A stretch of 41,324 nucleotides of DNA from Bacteroidales bacterium (GTDB lineage Bacteria > Bacteroidota > Bacteroidia > Bacteroidales > UBA932), in NCBI GenBank assembly GCA_017439305.1, contig JAFSJK010000072.1, positions 1 through 41,324 of the forward strand, given 5' to 3'. The translations under genes were made by a program, and so were the position numbers. The notes under the pieces were generated by a model. The model saw only the letters and a list, made by a program, of their open reading frames with translations. It was not told the origin of the DNA and did no database searches. The first letter of the stretch is position 1; each line of letters opens with the position of its first letter. This document shows, in pieces, positions 32,737 through 40,179 of this stretch.

Positions 32737-32767
32737 TTGCACGGGCGGAATGATCTTTGTATCTTTG
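32737..32767 (+). promoter_or_regulatory. Promoter of the left peptide-lipoprotein-nuclease arm
   Basis: TTG (32737-32739) is followed after 20 bases by TATCTTTG (32760-32767), a full match to the Bacteroidetes consensus. The sequence ATCTTTG is duplicated just upstream (32753-32759). The ATG of the peptide gene (32774) lies 6 bases after the -7 box, so the mRNA may be leaderless or nearly so. Confidence 0.7.
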
Positions 32768-32773
32768 TCAGGT

Positions 32774-32914
32774 ATGGATAACCTCAAGGATTACAGGAAG
32801 CCGGACCTCCGTCTCATCGAGGTCCGCTTCGAACGCGCCCTGCTGCAGACGTCCGGGACAGACAGGGCCGACGACGGCTATGACCCCGGAATCGACCTTG
32901 GAGACCTGGACTAG
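32774..32914 (+). CDS. Small acidic-tailed peptide, paralogue of the peptide at 40180-40311
   Basis: A 46-residue protein of unknown function. It has a basic/hydrophobic half (KPDLRLIEVRFERALLQTSG) and an acidic Asp/Gly-rich tail (YDPGIDLGDLD). It has no signal peptide or membrane helix. The core pattern R-(L/I)-(I/V)-(E/D)-V-R-(F/Y)-E-x-(A/S)-(L/F)-(L/M)-Q-(S/T) is shared with the 43-residue product at 40180-40311. Short proteins of this kind are, to my knowledge, widespread and poorly described in Bacteroidales near lipoprotein genes. It has its own promoter and sits 4 bases before a fimbrillin-like lipoprotein gene. The exact promoter spacing, the conserved paralogue and the tight spacing support a real gene. 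Confidence 0.7.
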   Translation: MDNLKDYRKPDLRLIEVRFERALLQTSGTDRADDGYDPGIDLGDLD

Positions 32915-32918
32915 CGCT

Positions 32919-35417
32919 ATGAAAAGATTCTTTCTTCCGGCGGTCCTCGCGGCCATCGCCCTTCTCGGCTGCCAGAAAGGCACCGAAGTCCTCGGCGGAA
33001 ACCTGGAGTTCAGTTCCGACGCTCCCGTCACCCGTACCGGATGGACGGGCGAAACCATTGAATGGACGGCGGGCGATGCCATCAGCATGGCCTACACCGT
33101 GAACGGACAGTGGGTTGGACCGAACCTGTATCCTTCCACGCCTCTCGCTCAAGGCGGCCCTACGGCGCATTTCACCGTCCCCGGGAACTTCAACTCCTCC
33201 ATAACGGGCACTCACCGTTTCTATGCGGTCTATCCGGCCGTATCTTATACGGACTTCAGCGATGCGCCGGACGTGTTTGCCTCCATCCCGGAAATCCAGA
33301 CGCCGACAGCCACATCCTATGACCCGGCGGCCGACCTCATGGCCGGAGAGTCCGAGGACTGGCGGAGCCTGCCCACCACTCCGGTTCCGCTCAAGTGGAA
33401 GCGCCTGACGGCCCATGCCGACATTACGCTCAAGAACCTGAGCCTGGACGAAGGCGAGACGGTTCAGAACATCGTCCTCCAAGCCCAGAACGGTGCCGAA
33501 CTTACCGGTGACGTGGCCATCGACCTCGCGAATCCGGAAGAATTTGCCACAGCGGGTGTCCCCCGCGTGACGGTGATGGCCGACAACCTCACCCTGGCAT
33601 CCAACGGTTCCCTGAACTTCTGGGTCAGCATCTTCCCCGTGGAACTGACCGACCTCACCGTCACGGTGGAGACCGACCGGGCCAGCTACCGGAAGACCTT
33701 CTCCGGCATTTCCAAGGTCTTCACGCAGAATGCCCGTAACGTATTGGGAATCAGCATGACGGGGGCTGTTAAGACCGCTCCCGCGCAGGAACCCGAATTC
33801 TATGTCAAAGTGACCCAGGCCCCCACCGACTGGACGGGCGATTATCTAGTGGTATATGAACCCGATGCACTTGTGCTGGACAGCGACGGGGATGCCAAGA
33901 CGCATGCTTCCGTCACGATTTCCAATGACAAGATCGCGTATGAAAGCGCAAAGGCATACAACATACATATCGAGAAGTCCGGTTCGGGTTACACGATGAA
34001 ACTGGGTGACAACTATTATGGACTGAATTCCGGAAGCAAAAATGCGCTCAATGTCAGTTCGGCCGAGCCCACGGACGGTTACCGCTGGACCTTCCGGAGC
34101 GTTGACGGTGCCCTCCGGGCCTATAACGTGGCCTACAGCACCCGTTTCCTCCAGTACAACTCCGGTTCCGGCCAGTTCCGGTGCTATACCAGCGCCCAGA
34201 AGGAGGTCACCTTCTTCAAACTGGACGGGGAAGCCGGTGGCGGCGGTGGTACCGATCCTACGCCGGTCACTCCGACGGTGACCACCGGTGACGCATCCAA
34301 CGTCACGCAGACGGAAGCTACCCTGGCTGCCACCTACACAGGTACGCCCACCTATGGCGGTGTGCAATGGGGCCTGTCTGCCAATGCCTTGACTGAGGAC
34401 TGGCAGGCGTCCTACCTGAACAATGGCTCCTTCAACGTCACCATCGACGGACTGGGCGCAGGTCACACCTATTACTACCGGGCTTATATCGCCGTTCTGG
34501 AAGGTACTGAGTACAAATTCTATTACGGTAAGACCAAGAGTTTCACCACCCCGGCCAGCGAGATTATCATCGGCGGCGACCAGCCCGGCTGGTACGAAGC
34601 GCCGGTGATGACCATCCAGACCAGCGGCGGTTACAAGGTGAACAAGAACGACAAAACGCAGTATTACGCCATCCACATGTGCACCGGAGGTGAAAAGGGC
34701 CCCGGCGGCAAGACCGCCCGCAACTACACCGTCTGCTACAGTGGCAAGTATCATTGCCCGCTCTGGGTCGCGGCCCCGAGGCACAACATGTACGTAGGCG
34801 GCAGCGGCCGTACCGACGCCTATCGCCAGGATCCGGACATCCCTTCCAACATCCAGTATAATTCCAAGAGCACGGGCGGCGGCTGCAACAAGGGTCATAT
34901 GCTGGGCTCGGCAGAACGAACCTCCTCCACGGCCACCAACCGGGACGTCTTCTACTACACGAACATCGCTCCGCAGCTCTCCTCCGGGTTCAACACCGGC
35001 GGAGGTGGCTGGAACATCCTGGAAGACTTTGTGGACACACAGGTATGTGCGGATACCCTGTATGAAGTGCTGGGCTGCTATTTTGACAAGTATACAGATG
35101 CCTACGGCTGGACCGTCTCCCCTTCCACCATCAGTTTCGGCGGCCGCAACGACGTGTCGATGCCCACGATGTACTACTATGTCCTGCTCCGCACGAAGAA
35201 AGGAAACACCGGCAAGGCGCTTTCCAACTGCACGGCTGACGAACTCCAGTGCGTCGCCTTCGTCCGCTCCCACACCAACAGTTTGAAGGGACAGAAAGTC
35301 ACCTCCCGCGAACTGATGTCCGTCGCCGACCTGGAGAAGATTACCGGCGTCACCTACTTCCCCAACGTTCCCCATGCCCCGAAGACCAGCTTCAAGGCTT
35401 CCGACTGGGGGCTGTAA
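32919..35417 (+). CDS. Fimbrillin-like lipoprotein with C-terminal DNA/RNA non-specific endonuclease domain
   Basis: An 832-residue secreted lipoprotein: signal peptide with lipobox LLGC (lipidated Cys18), then a fimbrillin-like domain (about 26-330, TRTGWTGETIEWTAGDAISM). A lectin- or trefoil-like domain with FLQYNSGSGQFRCYTS (about 335-480) and a Gly-rich linker follow. Next is an Fn3-like domain (about 500-585, TYYYRAYIAVLEG) and a NUC endonuclease domain (about 590-832). The nuclease core reads CNKGHM with His660, then TNIAPQ and WNILE, matching the His, Asn/Gln and metal-binding Glu of the Serratia nuclease family; Lys replaces the usual Arg of DRGH. It should degrade nucleic acid in the periplasm or at the cell surface. 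The start at 32919 gives the signal peptide; it is 4 bases after the peptide gene. Confidence 0.85.
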   Translation: MKRFFLPAVLAAIALLGCQKGTEVLGGNLEFSSDAPVTRTGWTGETIEWTAGDAISMAYTVNGQWVGPNLYPSTPLAQGGPTAHFTVPGNFNSSITGTHRFYAVYPAVSYTDFSDAPDVFASIPEIQTPTATSYDPAADLMAGESEDWRSLPTTPVPLKWKRLTAHADITLKNLSLDEGETVQNIVLQAQNGAELTGDVAIDLANPEEFATAGVPRVTVMADNLTLASNGSLNFWVSIFPVELTDLTVTVETDRASYRKTFSGISKVFTQNARNVLGISMTGAVKTAPAQEPEFYVKVTQAPTDWTGDYLVVYEPDALVLDSDGDAKTHASVTISNDKIAYESAKAYNIHIEKSGSGYTMKLGDNYYGLNSGSKNALNVSSAEPTDGYRWTFRSVDGALRAYNVAYSTRFLQYNSGSGQFRCYTSAQKEVTFFKLDGEAGGGGGTDPTPVTPTVTTGDASNVTQTEATLAATYTGTPTYGGVQWGLSANALTEDWQASYLNNGSFNVTIDGLGAGHTYYYRAYIAVLEGTEYKFYYGKTKSFTTPASEIIIGGDQPGWYEAPVMTIQTSGGYKVNKNDKTQYYAIHMCTGGEKGPGGKTARNYTVCYSGKYHCPLWVAAPRHNMYVGGSGRTDAYRQDPDIPSNIQYNSKSTGGGCNKGHMLGSAERTSSTATNRDVFYYTNIAPQLSSGFNTGGGGWNILEDFVDTQVCADTLYEVLGCYFDKYTDAYGWTVSPSTISFGGRNDVSMPTMYYYVLLRTKKGNTGKALSNCTADELQCVAFVRSHTNSLKGQKVTSRELMSVADLEKITGVTYFPNVPHAPKTSFKASDWGL

Positions 35418-35424
35418 CGGAGGC

Positions 35425-35530
35425 GGTTCGCCTATCCGGCTGACAACCAATCTGTTATGGAAAAGTCCCTGGTGAACAATCACCAGGGACTTTTCCATAA
35501 CTCACTATCAGTAACAAGGTTAGGCGAACC
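35425..35530. repeat. Symmetric palindrome between the two convergent arms
   Basis: GGTTCGCCTA (35425-35434) and its exact complement TAGGCGAACC (35521-35530) are placed symmetrically around the 22-bp stem of the terminator hairpin. There are 19 bases on each side between outer and inner arms, all centred at 35477.5. The right arm reaches the stop codon of the nuclease gene on the minus strand. The symmetry across 106 bases is more than a terminator needs. Confidence 0.6.
35454..35501. terminator. Bidirectional terminator with perfect 22-bp stem
   Basis: Bases 35454-35475 and 35480-35501 are perfect complements around the loop ACAA. GGAAAAG precedes and CTTTTCC follows the GC-rich core, so it offers an A/T run in both directions, fitting a shared terminator for the two convergent arms. 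The core GTCCCTGGTGA is the same as after ftsZ. Confidence 0.85.
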
Positions 35531-36639
35531 TAGAAATTCCTGAACGTATTCCAGTTCTTGTTGGTTTCGGCCGTAGCTTCGAGGGCGGGAGGAAGGTTCG
35601 CGAAGAAGTCGAAGCCGGTCTTTTGCTCAATCTCATCGACACTGACGGCGAAGTTCTGCCAATTCTCGCCGCTGTGTGCCTCGTGGGTGAACCAGAAGCC
35701 GATGGCGGAGGCCGCCGTGACGGCACCGCCGGAGCGGCGGACCTTCAGCAGGACTTTGTAATAGTAGTTCGGGATGGGCACGACCTTGCCGTCATTGGAA
35801 CTGTTCGTGAGCGTGCGGACCGTTTCACTGCCACCGGCAGTCTGGTACACGGGCCCCGTAACGACATACACGGAATCGGAGGAAGACACCAGGGTCCGGA
35901 CCGCCGATTCCAGGTTCTCCCAGATCCCCTGGTTGAAGGTCGCATGCTGCGGCGTGCTGTTCGTCCAGTAGTAGGTCTGCTTCTGCAGGCTCACATCCGC
36001 ATTGCGGTCCGCGTTCGGAATCTGATGACCACGGTCGTACGTGACACCGTCCAAAGAAGGATAGGCCTTGTACACGCTTGTCTGCTTGGAAGCGGGAATC
36101 TGCGGATTCACCGACCAGGGACCGCCCGTACCGGAATCGTGATAGGCATTGGAATAGACGTACGCTGTCCAGAGGGAAGCATACCGCGAAGGATCATAGA
36201 GAATGGAATAGTTCCGGACATCCTTCTCATTCAACGTCCCCCGCATCGTAACCAGATACTTCCCTCCCAGCGAGGAAGGAGACTCCGGTAATTCGAGCCA
36301 ATCCTTGTTGAGCGTAACGGAGGCCGATGCAGACAAGGTCCGGAACGACTTCACACTGCCATAAACCTCCTTGTAGGCGCCGTCCACCAGCACCTCCATG
36401 AACGCGACGTAATAGTAGGTCTTGTCCTCGTCCAGGCCGCCGGCGGTCGCGCTGAAAGACCCGCGGCCGATGGTCAGCGCGGACTGCGCATATACAACCT
36501 GCCCGTTGCTCACGAGCGAAGCGAGACTGGAGGACGTCCCCACATAGAATCCCGCTGCCTGGAAAGACTGGACTCCGGAATACGAAGCGGACAGGGTTGC
36601 CCCTGTCGCGCTTACGTTATTCGCGGATCCTGTGGTCAC
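35530..36639 (-). CDS. DNA/RNA non-specific endonuclease (NUC) segment, in frame after the TGA at 36679
   Basis: An open frame of 383 codons runs from just after the TGA (36679-36681) to a TAG at 35530. The only early start is a GTG at 36639 inside a Gly/Glu/Thr linker (369 residues). It has an Fn3-like domain (KTYYYVAFMEVLVDG) and a complete NUC domain: YDRGHQIPNADR, TNSTPQ and FNQGIWENLE. These line up residue for residue with His89, Asn110, Gln114, Asn119 and Glu127 of Serratia nuclease. It has no signal peptide of its own. The left-arm protein has the same linker-Fn3-NUC order fused to its lipoprotein half, so this is most likely the C-terminal half of one gene cut by a nonsense codon. 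Readthrough or reinitiation are alternatives. Confidence 0.75.
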   Translation of the reverse strand: MTTGSANNVSATGATLSASYSGVQSFQAAGFYVGTSSSLASLVSNGQVVYAQSALTIGRGSFSATAGGLDEDKTYYYVAFMEVLVDGAYKEVYGSVKSFRTLSASASVTLNKDWLELPESPSSLGGKYLVTMRGTLNEKDVRNYSILYDPSRYASLWTAYVYSNAYHDSGTGGPWSVNPQIPASKQTSVYKAYPSLDGVTYDRGHQIPNADRNADVSLQKQTYYWTNSTPQHATFNQGIWENLESAVRTLVSSSDSVYVVTGPVYQTAGGSETVRTLTNSSNDGKVVPIPNYYYKVLLKVRRSGGAVTAASAIGFWFTHEAHSGENWQNFAVSVDEIEQKTGFDFFANLPPALEATAETNKNWNTFRNF

Positions 36640-36678
36640 TGTGGGCTCTTCACCCCCGGCGCCGCCGCCGGATGACCC

Positions 36679-39600
36679 TCATTCGTAGGTGACGACCAGT
36701 TCCGTAATACGGACCTGGTTGTCCGTAGCGGTGAAGGAAACGGAAGACGCGGAACCCGTCCAGGTACCCACAAAGCCATCGGCCTCAAAGGAATACCCTT
36801 CAGGAGCACCTGCGCCCCAGCAACCAGGACCTTGTTTAGCCGTACCCTTGGCCGTGCAGGTCATCTTGATGCTGGTAATCTTGTAATCACCGGAAGCGGA
36901 GACAACCAAAGTATTGCTCTTGTACACACGAAGTTCCGTCGGAACCGTCGTACCGTAATCCGAAGAATTGGTGTAAGAAATCACATCCTTGCTACCATCC
37001 TTGTTGGCAGCAAGATACGCTTGGTCAAACACGACGGTTCCTTCCGTTTCCACCGGTTTGGTAGTAACCGTGACATTGCAATACTTCTCGGCATCCGTGT
37101 ACTTGCCTTCCACGCCGGCGATACGGGCATAAACTTTCACCGTTCCTTCAGCAACACCGGTGACGACACCGGACGCATTGACAGTGGCGATGGAAGGATC
37201 TTCGCTTTCGTAAGTGATCGTAGCCTCCGCCACATTGGAGGAAGCGTTCAGGGCAAAGGTCTCACCAACATAAACGTTGTGATTGGAAGGAAGCGAGATA
37301 GTCGTCGTGATCTCGGAAGGCTGATCCGGGAAGGTGGTGCCGTCACCGGTATAGACAACCTCGACAGCGGTGATGCGGACCTGGCCGTTATCCACAGTTC
37401 CGGAGTTCCCCACCGTGTAGGTAACACTGGTACCGGAGACCGTCTGGGTGTCGTCGCTGGCGACCTGATTTCCCTGCGTATCCAGAAGAATGCCCGTATT
37501 GGTAACGACATAAGTGAACTTGACCGACTTCAATTCACAGCCTTCAGCGACCGTGATGATGACATTGCCGTTCTGCTTCTGATACAACCGCCATTGTTTC
37601 GTATCGTTGGAACTGCTGGTATTCCAGAAGGATCCGCAATTGTCAGCACCGGTCGTGGACATCCGCACGGACTCATTCAACTGGAGGGTCTTGTACATAG
37701 TTGCATCAGATCCGGAGGAAACCGTGCAGCCGTGATCCTCTACATACTGGGACATCGTGATGGACAAGGTATTTCCATCCACGACGGAAGCACTGACCGT
37801 AATCTCATATTTCGCAGTCGCGGTCTTTTCGCCCTCCTTATAGGTGACAGTCACTTCCTTGGTGCCGGCCGTGGACATGTCGGGCTTGGAGACTTCCGTA
37901 GGCTGCACTTCCTTGGTGGAACCGTCGCTGTAGGTCGCGGTGACTTTGCCGTCGAAAACGAAGGTGTCGCCCACGTTGAAGGCAGTCTTCTGACCGGAAA
38001 CGGCAATGGACTCGAGGGTGGCAGCCGGGGCAGCATCACCGGAATACTTCACCGTGATGGCCTTGATGCGGCGGTGACCGCTGGTGCCGCCGACGGTAAA
38101 GGTCACGGAGCCGGCTTCGCCCGTCCAGGTGGGTTCAGCGTAAGTCGGGACATCGGTGGTGATGGCATTGGATCCTTCACCACTGCTGAAGGTAAGCTCG
38201 ATCGAGACAATGGTCTTTCCGCCAGCGGTGACAGTCAATGTGTTGCCGCCATAAGCACGGACGGCCGTTCCAGTCGTATAATACTTAGGAGCATTGGCGC
38301 CCGTTCCTTTATCGAAGGTCGCCTTCACGCCACTCTCGCTCACTTCCGTCACTTCAGCACCGTTCTCAAAGCCCTGCTCGGAGAAGTCAATCGTGACCGA
38401 CGTAACATCGGCGGCATCGGCCTTGGCCTGGGTGATGTTGATCTCGAACTCCTCGGTACCGGCAGCCACCAGGGAAGGCTCGTCCGTGCGGACGAAGACG
38501 GTGTATTCCTTGGGATTCTCGGTATCCTCGTTCTTCGCGAAGGAAACGGTGATGACTCCTTCGCCCTCGCCGGACTCCTTGTCCAGGGTAGCGCCGTCGG
38601 AAGCCTCGGCAGTCCAGGCAACGTTACCGGAGACATTGATCTTCACGGACGTGGTGGTGGCGGAGACTTCGGTCTGCTCGGCCGCGGCATTGAAGAACGG
38701 AGCGTCCTGGGCAACGATGTCATCCTGGGCCCAGAGACCCAGCTGCTTCGTCGTATTGTAATAGGTAGGATAGCCCACCATGTCGTACACGCCCAGAGGG
38801 ACGTCGAGAGTATTGGTTACCTGCGCATAGAGGTTCAGTTCAGACTCACCGTCCTTGATGGCGCCGTTGCGGTCGCTCGTAGTGATGGCGTCGGTCACTT
38901 CCACATCGGAAAGCTTCACGCGGACGCTGACATAGCGGTCGTAATCGGCCAGCAGGTCGGCCAGGGAAAGCTCGAGGGCAGCGGGGGCTTCTCCGGAAGC
39001 CTTGTCGAAACCGGTAAGCGAAGTAAGCTGGCGGACACCGTAGCGGATCCAGCCCTTGCCGGATACCAGGCCGCTCAGGACATCGCCGGCCTTGAGGCCG
39101 TGGCCGCTCATGTACAGGAGGATACCTGCGGTCTCATCCTGGATGAAGGCACTGTTGCCGCTCACGAAAGACACGGTGGCACCGGCCAGCTGTCCGGTGA
39201 ACTCGCTCGGAGAAGACTGCTGCGTGCTGGTGATCGCCTCGTTGATGTCGGCCACCGTAATGGTCGGGACGACGGACGGAGCCTCATAAGAGAGGTTCAG
39301 CGTCTTGATGGAACCACCGCCGAAGGTGTAGGCCTGCGCCAGGGTGACGGTCTTCTCCACTTCGCCCTGGTCGGCGAGGACGACGAGTTTCAACTCGGAA
39401 TCAACGTTGGCCGTGAAGGGCTTGACAGCCATGTAGAACTTGGCGGAAGCGCCGGGGGCGATGGCCTCGGCATCCTCCACGGAAAGGGTCACGGATGCGG
39501 ACACGTAATTGTCGCCGCTGCTCTTGAAAGCAACCTTTTCACCGGAGAAATCGATGTAATAGGTTCCCACGACATCTTCCGGGGCCGTAAAGGAAACCGA

Positions 39601-40155
39601 GCTGACAGTCAGGGGCTTGTCCGTGTCATTGGTGAGGTTGACGGCCACCACGGAGGAGACGTGCTTCATCGAAACCACGGGCTTCTGGTCCACGGCGACA
39701 TTCTTCGCCACGCCGACGACCGGCAGGTTCTTTCCGGCCAGGTGGGCCATGCTGTCATTCCCCTTCTGGGTCTGGTTCAGGCCACCGACGGTCATATAGC
39801 CGCTGTTGGTGTTGGCCGGCGTCTTCAGATGGGAATCATACGGATAGAAGAGATACCAGTCATAGGCTTCGGCCGTCAATTCGACTTCGCCCACGGCCAG
39901 GTTCTGGTCCGGATCCGTCACGTCGAACTTGGCGACGGCATACTCGGTCTGTCCGGCGGGTGCATAGAATACGCTCAGGGCGTCGCCTTCCACCCACTTG
40001 GTCGTCATTCCGCTGTTGACCGTACGGGTGGAAGCATCGGAAAGGACGATCTCGTAGGGAACGCCGTCAAGGCCTTTGACATCGGCTTCCTTGTTACAGC
40101 CGGCAAAGGAAAGGGTGGCAGCAGCCAGACCCGCAAAGAGAAGGGACTTTTTCAT
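36679..40155 (-). CDS. Large multidomain lipoprotein (fimbrillin-like, DUF5689-like, BACON, Big domains)
   Basis: A 1158-residue lipoprotein (ATG at 40155; the GTG before it is less likely) with lipobox SFAGC, Cys20, followed by NKEAD. The domain order is: fimbrillin-like (about 22-290); DUF5689/OB-like (about 298-485, SFVSGNSAFIQDETAGILLY); BACON (about 490-577); three copies of a ~120-residue jelly-roll-like unit (about 584-706, 793-938 and 1035-1158), each ending in RI-x-x-(I/V/L)-x-V-x-Y; a Big_3-like domain (about 713-788) between the first and second; a Big_2-like domain (about 945-1030, NVYVGETFALNAS) before the third. It should sit at the outer membrane, probably on the surface. The TGA ends it exactly at the domain border; the frame then continues into a nuclease. 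It follows the small peptide gene by 24 bases. Confidence 0.8.
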   Translation of the reverse strand: MKKSLLFAGLAAATLSFAGCNKEADVKGLDGVPYEIVLSDASTRTVNSGMTTKWVEGDALSVFYAPAGQTEYAVAKFDVTDPDQNLAVGEVELTAEAYDWYLFYPYDSHLKTPANTNSGYMTVGGLNQTQKGNDSMAHLAGKNLPVVGVAKNVAVDQKPVVSMKHVSSVVAVNLTNDTDKPLTVSSVSFTAPEDVVGTYYIDFSGEKVAFKSSGDNYVSASVTLSVEDAEAIAPGASAKFYMAVKPFTANVDSELKLVVLADQGEVEKTVTLAQAYTFGGGSIKTLNLSYEAPSVVPTITVADINEAITSTQQSSPSEFTGQLAGATVSFVSGNSAFIQDETAGILLYMSGHGLKAGDVLSGLVSGKGWIRYGVRQLTSLTGFDKASGEAPAALELSLADLLADYDRYVSVRVKLSDVEVTDAITTSDRNGAIKDGESELNLYAQVTNTLDVPLGVYDMVGYPTYYNTTKQLGLWAQDDIVAQDAPFFNAAAEQTEVSATTTSVKINVSGNVAWTAEASDGATLDKESGEGEGVITVSFAKNEDTENPKEYTVFVRTDEPSLVAAGTEEFEINITQAKADAADVTSVTIDFSEQGFENGAEVTEVSESGVKATFDKGTGANAPKYYTTGTAVRAYGGNTLTVTAGGKTIVSIELTFSSGEGSNAITTDVPTYAEPTWTGEAGSVTFTVGGTSGHRRIKAITVKYSGDAAPAATLESIAVSGQKTAFNVGDTFVFDGKVTATYSDGSTKEVQPTEVSKPDMSTAGTKEVTVTYKEGEKTATAKYEITVSASVVDGNTLSITMSQYVEDHGCTVSSGSDATMYKTLQLNESVRMSTTGADNCGSFWNTSSSNDTKQWRLYQKQNGNVIITVAEGCELKSVKFTYVVTNTGILLDTQGNQVASDDTQTVSGTSVTYTVGNSGTVDNGQVRITAVEVVYTGDGTTFPDQPSEITTTISLPSNHNVYVGETFALNASSNVAEATITYESEDPSIATVNASGVVTGVAEGTVKVYARIAGVEGKYTDAEKYCNVTVTTKPVETEGTVVFDQAYLAANKDGSKDVISYTNSSDYGTTVPTELRVYKSNTLVVSASGDYKITSIKMTCTAKGTAKQGPGCWGAGAPEGYSFEADGFVGTWTGSASSVSFTATDNQVRITELVVTYE

Positions 40156-40179
40156 CACTTGGTTCTTTAAGGGTTCGAC

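Follow-up and report, generated by a model that had tools for sequence, protein, structure and literature searches.

An in-frame UGA followed by an RNA hairpin is probably read through in many surface lipoprotein genes of gut Bacteroidales

A lipoprotein gene with a nuclease tail behind its stop codon

The window analysed here is the whole of a 41,324-nucleotide stretch of DNA from a Bacteroidales genome of the genus Candidatus Cryptobacteroides. On its minus strand, a surface lipoprotein ORF of 1159 codons (36679..40158) opens with a GTG at 40158 and an ATG at 40155, the latter probably being the start, and terminates at a TGA that we confirmed in the letters at 36679-36681. The encoded protein carries a lipobox (...SFAGC) and Pfam Big_2/Big_3 domains. 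Among 30 complete host proteins, a regular expression found a lipobox in 28, and the remaining two were lipoprotein-like by eye. The host N-termini also looked fimbrillin-like by eye and returned no Pfam match.

The TGA stands in the context ACC UAC GAA UGA GGG (36679..36681, minus strand) and is the proposed readthrough site. Beyond it the same frame continues as a tail of 382 codons closed by TAG (35530..36678, minus strand), in which no signal peptide was seen. The tail begins with a Gly/Ser/Glu-rich linker, GSSGGGAGGEEPT (36640..36678, minus strand), which frame translation and inspection of start codons showed to be start-less; the earliest start-like codons past the stop are GTGs at codons 14, 46 and 56. 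Within the linker sequence lies a predicted RNA hairpin, UCCGGCG-GCGG-CGCCGGG (36655..36672, minus strand), with seven pairs and a 4-nt loop, whose first base is the seventh after the UGA. An Fn3-like domain follows tentatively at 36334..36639 (minus strand; limits set by eye): this region has no Pfam match in the window, and among 81 related tails fn3 was matched in one and Pur_ac_phosph_N in 13. The DNA/RNA non-specific endonuclease domain (PF01223; 35590..36225, minus strand) was assigned by Pfam, by structure-sequence alignment and by its invariant columns. Endonuclease_NS covers tail residues 152-363 (E 3.5e-46, 158.1 bits against a curated cut-off of 23), Serratia-type nucleases of solved structure could be aligned with the tail, DRGH motif included (1g8t, E 9.1e-20), and the domain was found in 81 of 81 related tails scanned, the other two of the 83 being cut at contig ends.

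Downstream, a large inverted repeat with 51-nt arms that are 76% complementary (35425..35530, no strand) separates two convergent genes and is possibly a bidirectional terminator. No known Rfam element reached the gathering score in the window. The second convergent gene, on the plus strand, is a left-arm paralogue (32757-35417, or 32919..35417 with the start chosen by eye) in which lipoprotein and nuclease are joined in one frame with no stop.

Much of this layout had been described in an earlier sequence-only reading of the locus and is borne out here, namely the TGA that ends a large lipoprotein while its frame continues, the nuclease part without a signal peptide and with only a GTG inside the linker, the NUC nuclease with its DRGH motif, and the left-arm homologue with the same parts in a single protein. 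The open frame of 383 codons given there stands as an open frame but counts 382, and the Fn3-like domain proposed there is weakly supported.

Recurrence of the junction and its hairpin

The same layout, a surface lipoprotein followed by an in-frame TGA, a start-less linker and an NS-type nuclease, recurs across Candidatus Cryptobacteroides. The best 80 of 221 nuclease-similar loci comprised 48 in-frame stop junctions, 29 fused long single frames and three separate genes; since only these best 80 were kept and the query alignment (A1) was built from ten tails of split genes and three of fused ones, the split share is inflated, while the type of stop was not selected. The 48 junction stops were TGA in 47 cases, TAG in one and TAA in none, compared with 20 TAA, 15 TAG and 13 TGA among the final stops of the same frames. 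The single TAG junction (L144) also has a weakened stem. Since an ATG and a hydrophobic N-terminus come directly after the stop, two loci whose nuclease is preceded by an in-frame TAG or TAA (L129 and L140) were classed as separate genes and excluded by hand from both junction sets. A comparison with related loci, a check of the kind proposed in the sequence-only reading, returned an in-frame TGA at 47 of 48 junctions and separate genes in 3 of 80 loci. Genome titles of some junction loci, all MAGs, include names such as Alistipes, Tidjanibacter or Bacteroides.

In addition, the pattern TGA-N6-TCCGGMGGMGGM occurred at 107 sites in 90 of 400 genomes, and 52 of the 107 were full junctions. Its TAR version gave 13 sites and no junction (0/13), and a reversed-pattern control gave about 40 matches (counted from the table), in agreement with some 53 chance sites. 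Pattern hits supplied 52 entries of an 83-junction set and preselect TGA and part of the stem, and counts were therefore repeated on the 48 junctions that the nuclease-similarity search had yielded. In the wider order, 18 of 295 genomes (the window's own included) matched at E <= 1e-40, and among readable loci the only junction was that of the window; 14 of the 16 order-level loci L288-L303 had a readable motif and none had a junction. The same-genus loci L304-L307 had no readable motif.

Tails at the junctions lack early start codons, with 82 of 83 having no ATG in the first 25 codons and 82 of 83 having no ATG, GTG or TTG in the first 12. They are diverse (81 tails form 76 nuclease clusters at 90% identity) and under purifying selection, with dN/dS of 0.12-0.29 over 21 pairs of seven orthologues. 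The TGA is kept in L068, which shares 94% DNA identity across 5.1 kb, and in relatives at dS near 1. Some tails decay: L060 and L215 keep the linker and meet a second stop soon after. U at position +4, which makes for strong termination, is avoided, occurring after 1 of the 48 stops and at 2 of 83 junctions; among ordinary TGA stops in genome G016 it follows 24 of 62, the +4 and last-residue controls being drawn from half of one genome. Where the first codon of the tail is serine, it is AGY in 26 cases and UCN in two, compared with 1606 and 2252 elsewhere in tails.

The junction element is mostly a simple hairpin of 6-8 bp that usually starts at the seventh base downstream of the UGA. The best helix just 3' of the stop reached -8 kcal/mol or lower in 39 of 48 junctions; the counts for five other windows were 6, 4, 8, 1 and 1 of 48. 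Under synonymous recodings, the MFE gave a mean z of -1.53 at the junctions versus -0.39 and +0.34; only 15 of 48 junction windows fell in the lowest 5% of recodings, as did 7 of 48 control windows at +150. Pair 5 of the stem varies with compensation between C-G, A-U, G-C and U-A. All 12 distinct stems had a standard pair at this variable position (5.3 on average after shuffling, with 0 of 5000 shuffles as high), a test that rests mostly on one pair and in which related sequences inflate the shuffle result; it drew on 66 of 83 hairpins, omitting 12 two-part ones and L102, L118, L138, L144 and L004. The nine junctions of 48 without a helix at the -8 cut-off all belong, in our own tally, to a class with a longer two-part helix, and the helix found in L004 is weak (-2.5). 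Helices at or below -9 were present in 52 of 59 junctions compared with 3 of 18 fused linkers, one of these three being the window's own left arm; the comparison covers 59 of the 83 junctions and 18 of the 28 fused loci tried, the others lacking the marker, and the 18 include four duplicates. The 3' hairpin, the avoidance of +4U and the recurrence across the genus do not figure in the sequence-only reading.

We additionally scanned 1.19 Mb of G016 (two contigs) without prior selection. A strict coding-score cut-off yielded 20 in-frame continuations, each of which has an ATG in its first six codons, and was underpowered, the genome's known junction (L004) itself falling below it. The relaxed cut-off, which 55 of the 83 junctions pass, yielded 69 candidates without an early ATG (46 TGA, 14 TAG, 9 TAA), most of which look by eye like antisense shadow frames.

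Readthrough and competing explanations

Reassignment of UGA to a sense codon is not supported: RF2 scored over cut-off in 5 of 5 genomes, and TGA closes 82 of 476 coding frames in G016 and 13 of the 48 tails. In two genome sets that may overlap, SelB exceeded its cut-off in none (0 of 61 and 0 of 10), and it did so in 2 of 14 controls. Matches to tRNA numbered 40 in G000 and 41 in G016, with loci fetched in part for the former and with the aim of covering all for the latter; no UCA anticodon was seen among the resulting 71 partly redundant predictions, a set of unproven completeness. The single tRNA-Trp seen in G016 has five anticodon-stem pairs, the top one being G-U by our reading of the fold.

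These results bear directly on selenocysteine insertion through a bSECIS, and on decoding of UGA genome-wide or by a suppressor tRNA. The UGA directly before a stem-loop does reproduce the bSECIS layout (PMC8211752), but the SelB result, the RF2 and final-stop counts and the absence of a UCA anticodon from the tRNA set seen make such decoding very improbable. A recent nonsense mutation in one genome, or a sequencing or assembly error, would account for a single stop in a frame whose counterpart in the left-arm homologue is uninterrupted. Both were offered in the sequence-only reading, and we give them a negligible probability: recurrence refutes them, since TGA occupies 47 of 48 junctions and is retained in L068 and at dS near 1, so that the stop is not private to one lineage, and downstream selection is not relaxed. 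Alternatively, translation could end at the UGA and start anew inside the linker, releasing the nuclease as its own product. Termination-reinitiation is known in bacteria (PMC6728339), and the GTG at codon 14 offers a possible start in the window; however, 82 of 83 tails lack early start codons on either count and a stable hairpin adjoins the stop. Because the tail starts directly with the linker, a separate nuclease would also be without an export signal, and we regard this explanation as improbable.

Finally, the hairpin could mainly be a DNA recombination site for host 3' modules, with TGA as the normal stop of the host and a mostly silent tail. Between L069 and L072 the last ~490 nt before the TGA cannot be aligned, the sequences to either side of this segment share 97% identity, and homology resumes at +7. 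Of the 21 pairs formed by the seven orthologous loci, 20 have a tail alignment that begins between -16 and +8 of the TGA, where upstream homology breaks, and the nuclease tree implies 16-17 changes of stop state, of which at least 12 fall on well-supported branches. Recombination here is compatible with readthrough, not exclusive of it. As the main role of the element it is unlikely, leaving unexplained the UGA preference, the +4U avoidance, the AGY serine beside the stop, the in-frame linkers and the strong purifying selection acting on a tail that could not otherwise be translated.

Taken together, the junctions combine a conserved same-frame continuation, coding selection past the stop, a leaky context and a 3' RNA helix, the last being a putative stimulator of readthrough. 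A UGA followed by a hairpin and an in-frame, start-less nuclease recurs, and the stop is therefore probably read through on purpose across many lipoprotein genes of gut Bacteroidales. We consider it likely that hairpin-stimulated, programmed UGA readthrough adds the nuclease to a minority of lipoprotein molecules, and this third option of the sequence-only reading is the best supported of its three. Most ribosomes would terminate at the UGA and yield a plain surface lipoprotein. A minority would decode it by a near-cognate tRNA, most likely tRNA-Trp(CCA), assisted by two features, a context that terminates poorly (UGA without +4U) and the stable hairpin that usually starts at the seventh base downstream. 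Such ribosomes would cross the flexible linker and produce a lipoprotein with a secreted NS-type nuclease at its C-terminus. That readthrough occurs, its rate and inserted residue, and that the extended protein is made and displayed at the surface are what we infer from the comparative evidence.

On balance we also lean towards a broader reading, in which UGA and hairpin form a portable element of a new, widespread, SelB-independent bacterial recoding system. Many surface lipoproteins of one gut genus would then exist in two forms, plain and nuclease-tipped, with the hairpin setting their ratio, perhaps under regulation, and the element would double as a boundary for the exchange of host C-terminal modules with the tail staying in frame.

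Relation to known systems

The best-known cases of programmed readthrough come from viruses, along with some eukaryotic genes, and UGA redefinition in bacterial chromosomes is known mostly as selenocysteine insertion. A 3' RNA stimulator is found in many, though not all, known readthrough cases. If the proposal holds, a non-Sec, hairpin-linked UGA readthrough family in dozens of species would be a natural and testable model of the tuning of bacterial ribosomes and RF2 in cis. Gene finders stopping at TGA would split or drop these nucleases, and the surface nuclease repertoire of a gut and rumen genus would therefore be missed.

One parallel is phage Q-beta A1, where, according to PMC8067240, the coat UGA is read by Trp misincorporation about 1 in 15 times. 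As proposed here, the UGA of a major surface protein gives a minor C-terminally extended copy; unlike that RNA phage gene, our cases are chromosomal bacterial lipoproteins with a nuclease tail, a covarying hairpin and many host genes. MuLV gag-pol, as presented in PMC5009743, likewise has an in-frame stop, structured RNA just 3' and a minority extended product, which we propose here too, but its stop is UAG, its structure a pseudoknot and its host a eukaryote, in contrast to UGA and a mostly simple 6-8 bp hairpin in bacteria. Bacterial selenoprotein bSECIS elements share the UGA directly before a stem-loop inside a coding frame (PMC8211752), whereas here SelB is over cut-off in 0/61 and 0/10 genomes and a whole enzyme domain lies downstream. 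A tRNA-Trp(CCA) with a 4-bp anticodon stem decodes UGA in bacteria, according to PMC13092985, and the same tRNA species is our candidate decoder; unlike in that system, the G016 tRNA-Trp has five anticodon-stem pairs and UGA remains a normal stop. The tail itself resembles Serratia-type NS nucleases (PF01223) in domain, DRGH motif and invariant columns, and differs from them in being joined to a lipoprotein behind a stop codon.

Recurrence of an in-frame UGA between lipoprotein and nuclease

On the minus strand of the window, the ORF of the host lipoprotein comprises 1159 codons and ends at TGA 36679-36681, after which the same frame remains open for another 382 codons. This tail consists, in order, of a Gly-rich linker, an Fn3-like stretch and a nuclease domain of the DNA/RNA non-specific endonuclease type (PF01223, E 3.5e-46) that aligns with the Serratia nuclease, DRGH included. 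The sequence-only reading had named the same parts, of which the nuclease with its DRGH motif was confirmed, while the Fn3-like domain is only weakly supported. No ATG is found near the start of the tail, where a GTG at codon 14 is the first codon resembling a start.

A search with the tail alone among relatives of the window gave matches in 75 of 101 genomes. Comparison with related genomes had been proposed in the sequence-only reading, and ten of the 26 loci we inspected, the window's own included, showed the same break (a long frame, a TGA and an in-frame tail), whereas at the remainder the two parts were fused or encoded by separate genes, or the locus was truncated where its contig stops. 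Among the best 80 of 221 loci by nuclease similarity, we found 48 in-frame stop junctions, 29 long single frames and 3 separate genes. The stop at these 48 junctions was TGA in 47 cases, TAG in one and TAA in none. The final stops of these 48 frames are TAA (20), TAG (15) and TGA (13), so UGA also functions there as a normal stop and its prevalence at the junction stands out. L129 and L140, which have a TAG or TAA in frame, were classed as separate genes and set aside because an ATG and a hydrophobic N-terminus come directly after the stop. At L329 (own genome, contig C10), another nuclease lipoprotein lies in frame after a host-like frame of 360 codons ending in TAA; with a hydrophobic N-terminus of its own, it has the appearance of an ordinary separate gene.

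In addition, we searched 400 genomes of the window's genus, Candidatus Cryptobacteroides, for the pattern TGA-N6-TCCGGMGGMGGM, which occurs at 107 sites in 90 genomes. When all 107 were checked, 52 proved to be full junctions and most of the others lay in short frames; at L060 and L215 the linker is kept and a second stop comes early, and these tails are decaying. The TAA/TAG version of the pattern occurs at 13 sites in 13 of the 400 genomes, none of them a junction. On a FastTree tree of 124 nuclease rows we counted 16-17 changes of the stop state, of which at least 12 fall on well-supported branches, indicating that split and fused forms have been interchanged repeatedly; despite this, the split form nearly always carries UGA. 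Seven orthologous tails gave dN/dS values of 0.12 to 0.29 in all 21 pairs, the highest dS being 1.05. Endonuclease_NS was detected in 81/81 tails scanned, and 12 columns are invariant across the 81 sequences, including G217, H218, N240, N249 and E257.

A hairpin and a biased context follow the UGA

In a larger collection of 83 junctions, 52 of which were found through a pattern containing part of the stem, the best helix begins at the 7th base after UGA in 61 and at the 8th in 5 more. A spacing of 6 nt from stop to helix resembles the one that separates a frameshifting stimulator from its slippery site, and with UGA in the A site the helix would lie near the mRNA entrance. The hairpin takes two main forms, UCCGGCG-GNGG-CGCCGGG and UCCGGAGG-CGGAA-CCUCCGGG. 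Rarer hairpins (L087, L096, L109 and L128) have other letters with the pairing kept, and L102, L118 and L138 have a different strong helix in place of the usual one. At a third class of 12 loci (for example L006, L092 and L112) a longer two-part helix can form, and by eye L112 and L092 differ from the others on both of its sides. The sole TAG junction, L144:324-326, has a stem weakened by an outer mismatch.

For 66 hairpins of common geometry, representing 12 distinct stems, standard pairs filled 95% of cells compared to 87% in shuffles, a level reached in 0 of 5000 shuffles; at the most variable position all 12 stems have a standard pair, and all four Watson-Crick types occur. In the 48 junctions from the best 80 of 221 loci, a helix of -8 kcal/mol or lower was present at the junction in 39, compared to 6, 4 and 8 at 90, 150 and 300 nt downstream and one each at 150 and 300 nt upstream. 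The junction windows also folded more stably than synonymous recodings of the same peptide (mean z -1.53, compared to -0.39 at +150 and +0.34 at -150), with 15, 7 and 1 of the 48 windows, respectively, in the lowest 5%. A helix of -9 or lower was found in 52 of 59 junctions but in only 3 of 18 linkers of fused homologues; this set includes four duplicates, and the left arm of the window is among the three.

The nucleotide context of the UGA is also distinctive. A U directly follows UGA in 1 of the 48 junctions (best 80 of 221 loci) and 2 of the 83, compared to 24 of 62 ordinary TGA stops of the related genome G016 (Fisher p 1e-8). A U at this position is described as lowering read-through in E. 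coli and yeast, mainly for UAA (PMC5289835). Where serine is the first tail codon, it is encoded by AGY 26 times and by UCN twice, compared to 1606 AGY and 2252 UCN codons elsewhere in the tails; selection at this codon therefore seems to act on the nucleotide rather than the amino acid. Asn is the last host residue in 22 of the 48 (best 80 of 221 loci) and 37 of the 83 junctions, compared to 17 of 427 ordinary ends of G016 genes, an excess that may stem from the host domain or from an effect in the P site.

Exchange of modules at the stop and hairpin

The window and L068 share 94% identity over the whole 5.1 kb. For the remaining 20 of the 21 pairs among seven loci, the tail alignment begins within -16 to +8 of the TGA. 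L069 and L072 are 97% identical on either flank, but the ~490 nt of host sequence leading up to the TGA (-489 to +7) cannot be aligned, and homology restarts at +7. We therefore conclude that the C-terminal module of the host was exchanged up to the stop and hairpin with the tail retained, and accordingly the element may double as a recombination boundary, or be selected as one.

The left-arm homologue had been described in the sequence-only reading as having the parts joined, and the convergent left-arm gene does encode lipoprotein and nuclease in a single frame. This convergent pair, one gene fused and one split, spans 32757-40158 of the window, with a large inverted repeat between the two genes, an arrangement in which 3'-end exchange by inversion could take place. 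Convergent pairs of two split genes were seen at L194 and on the contig of L046 and L165.

Probable decoding of the UGA and a possible role

SelB was not detected over the cut-off in any of 61 relatives or of 10 genomes with divergent elements (sets that may overlap), and a set of 71 tRNA predictions, partly redundant, included none with a UCA, CUA or UUA anticodon. The anticodon of tRNA-Trp is CCA, and RF2 was over the cut-off in 5/5 genomes. Reading by near-cognate tRNA-Trp would therefore be the likeliest route. As we read its fold, the tRNA-Trp of G016 (a single gene that apparently turned up twice, in overlapping loci) has a G-U pair at the top of its anticodon stem instead of a Watson-Crick one; a broken top pair of this stem has been linked elsewhere to UGA reading (PMC13092985).

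A lipobox was identified by regular expression in 28 of 30 complete hosts, and six of eight hosts scanned had a Big or BACON match over the cut-off. In the simplest model, most copies would be an adhesin-like lipoprotein with no tail, and a minority would carry the nuclease at the tip. We conjecture that such copies might cut, for example, the DNA of biofilm or food debris, and that a low nuclease dosage may limit cost or damage. In open-access literature on readthrough in bacteria and Bacteroidales we recognised nothing as this element, and the closest known mechanism is that described for the Q-beta A1 protein (PMC8067240).
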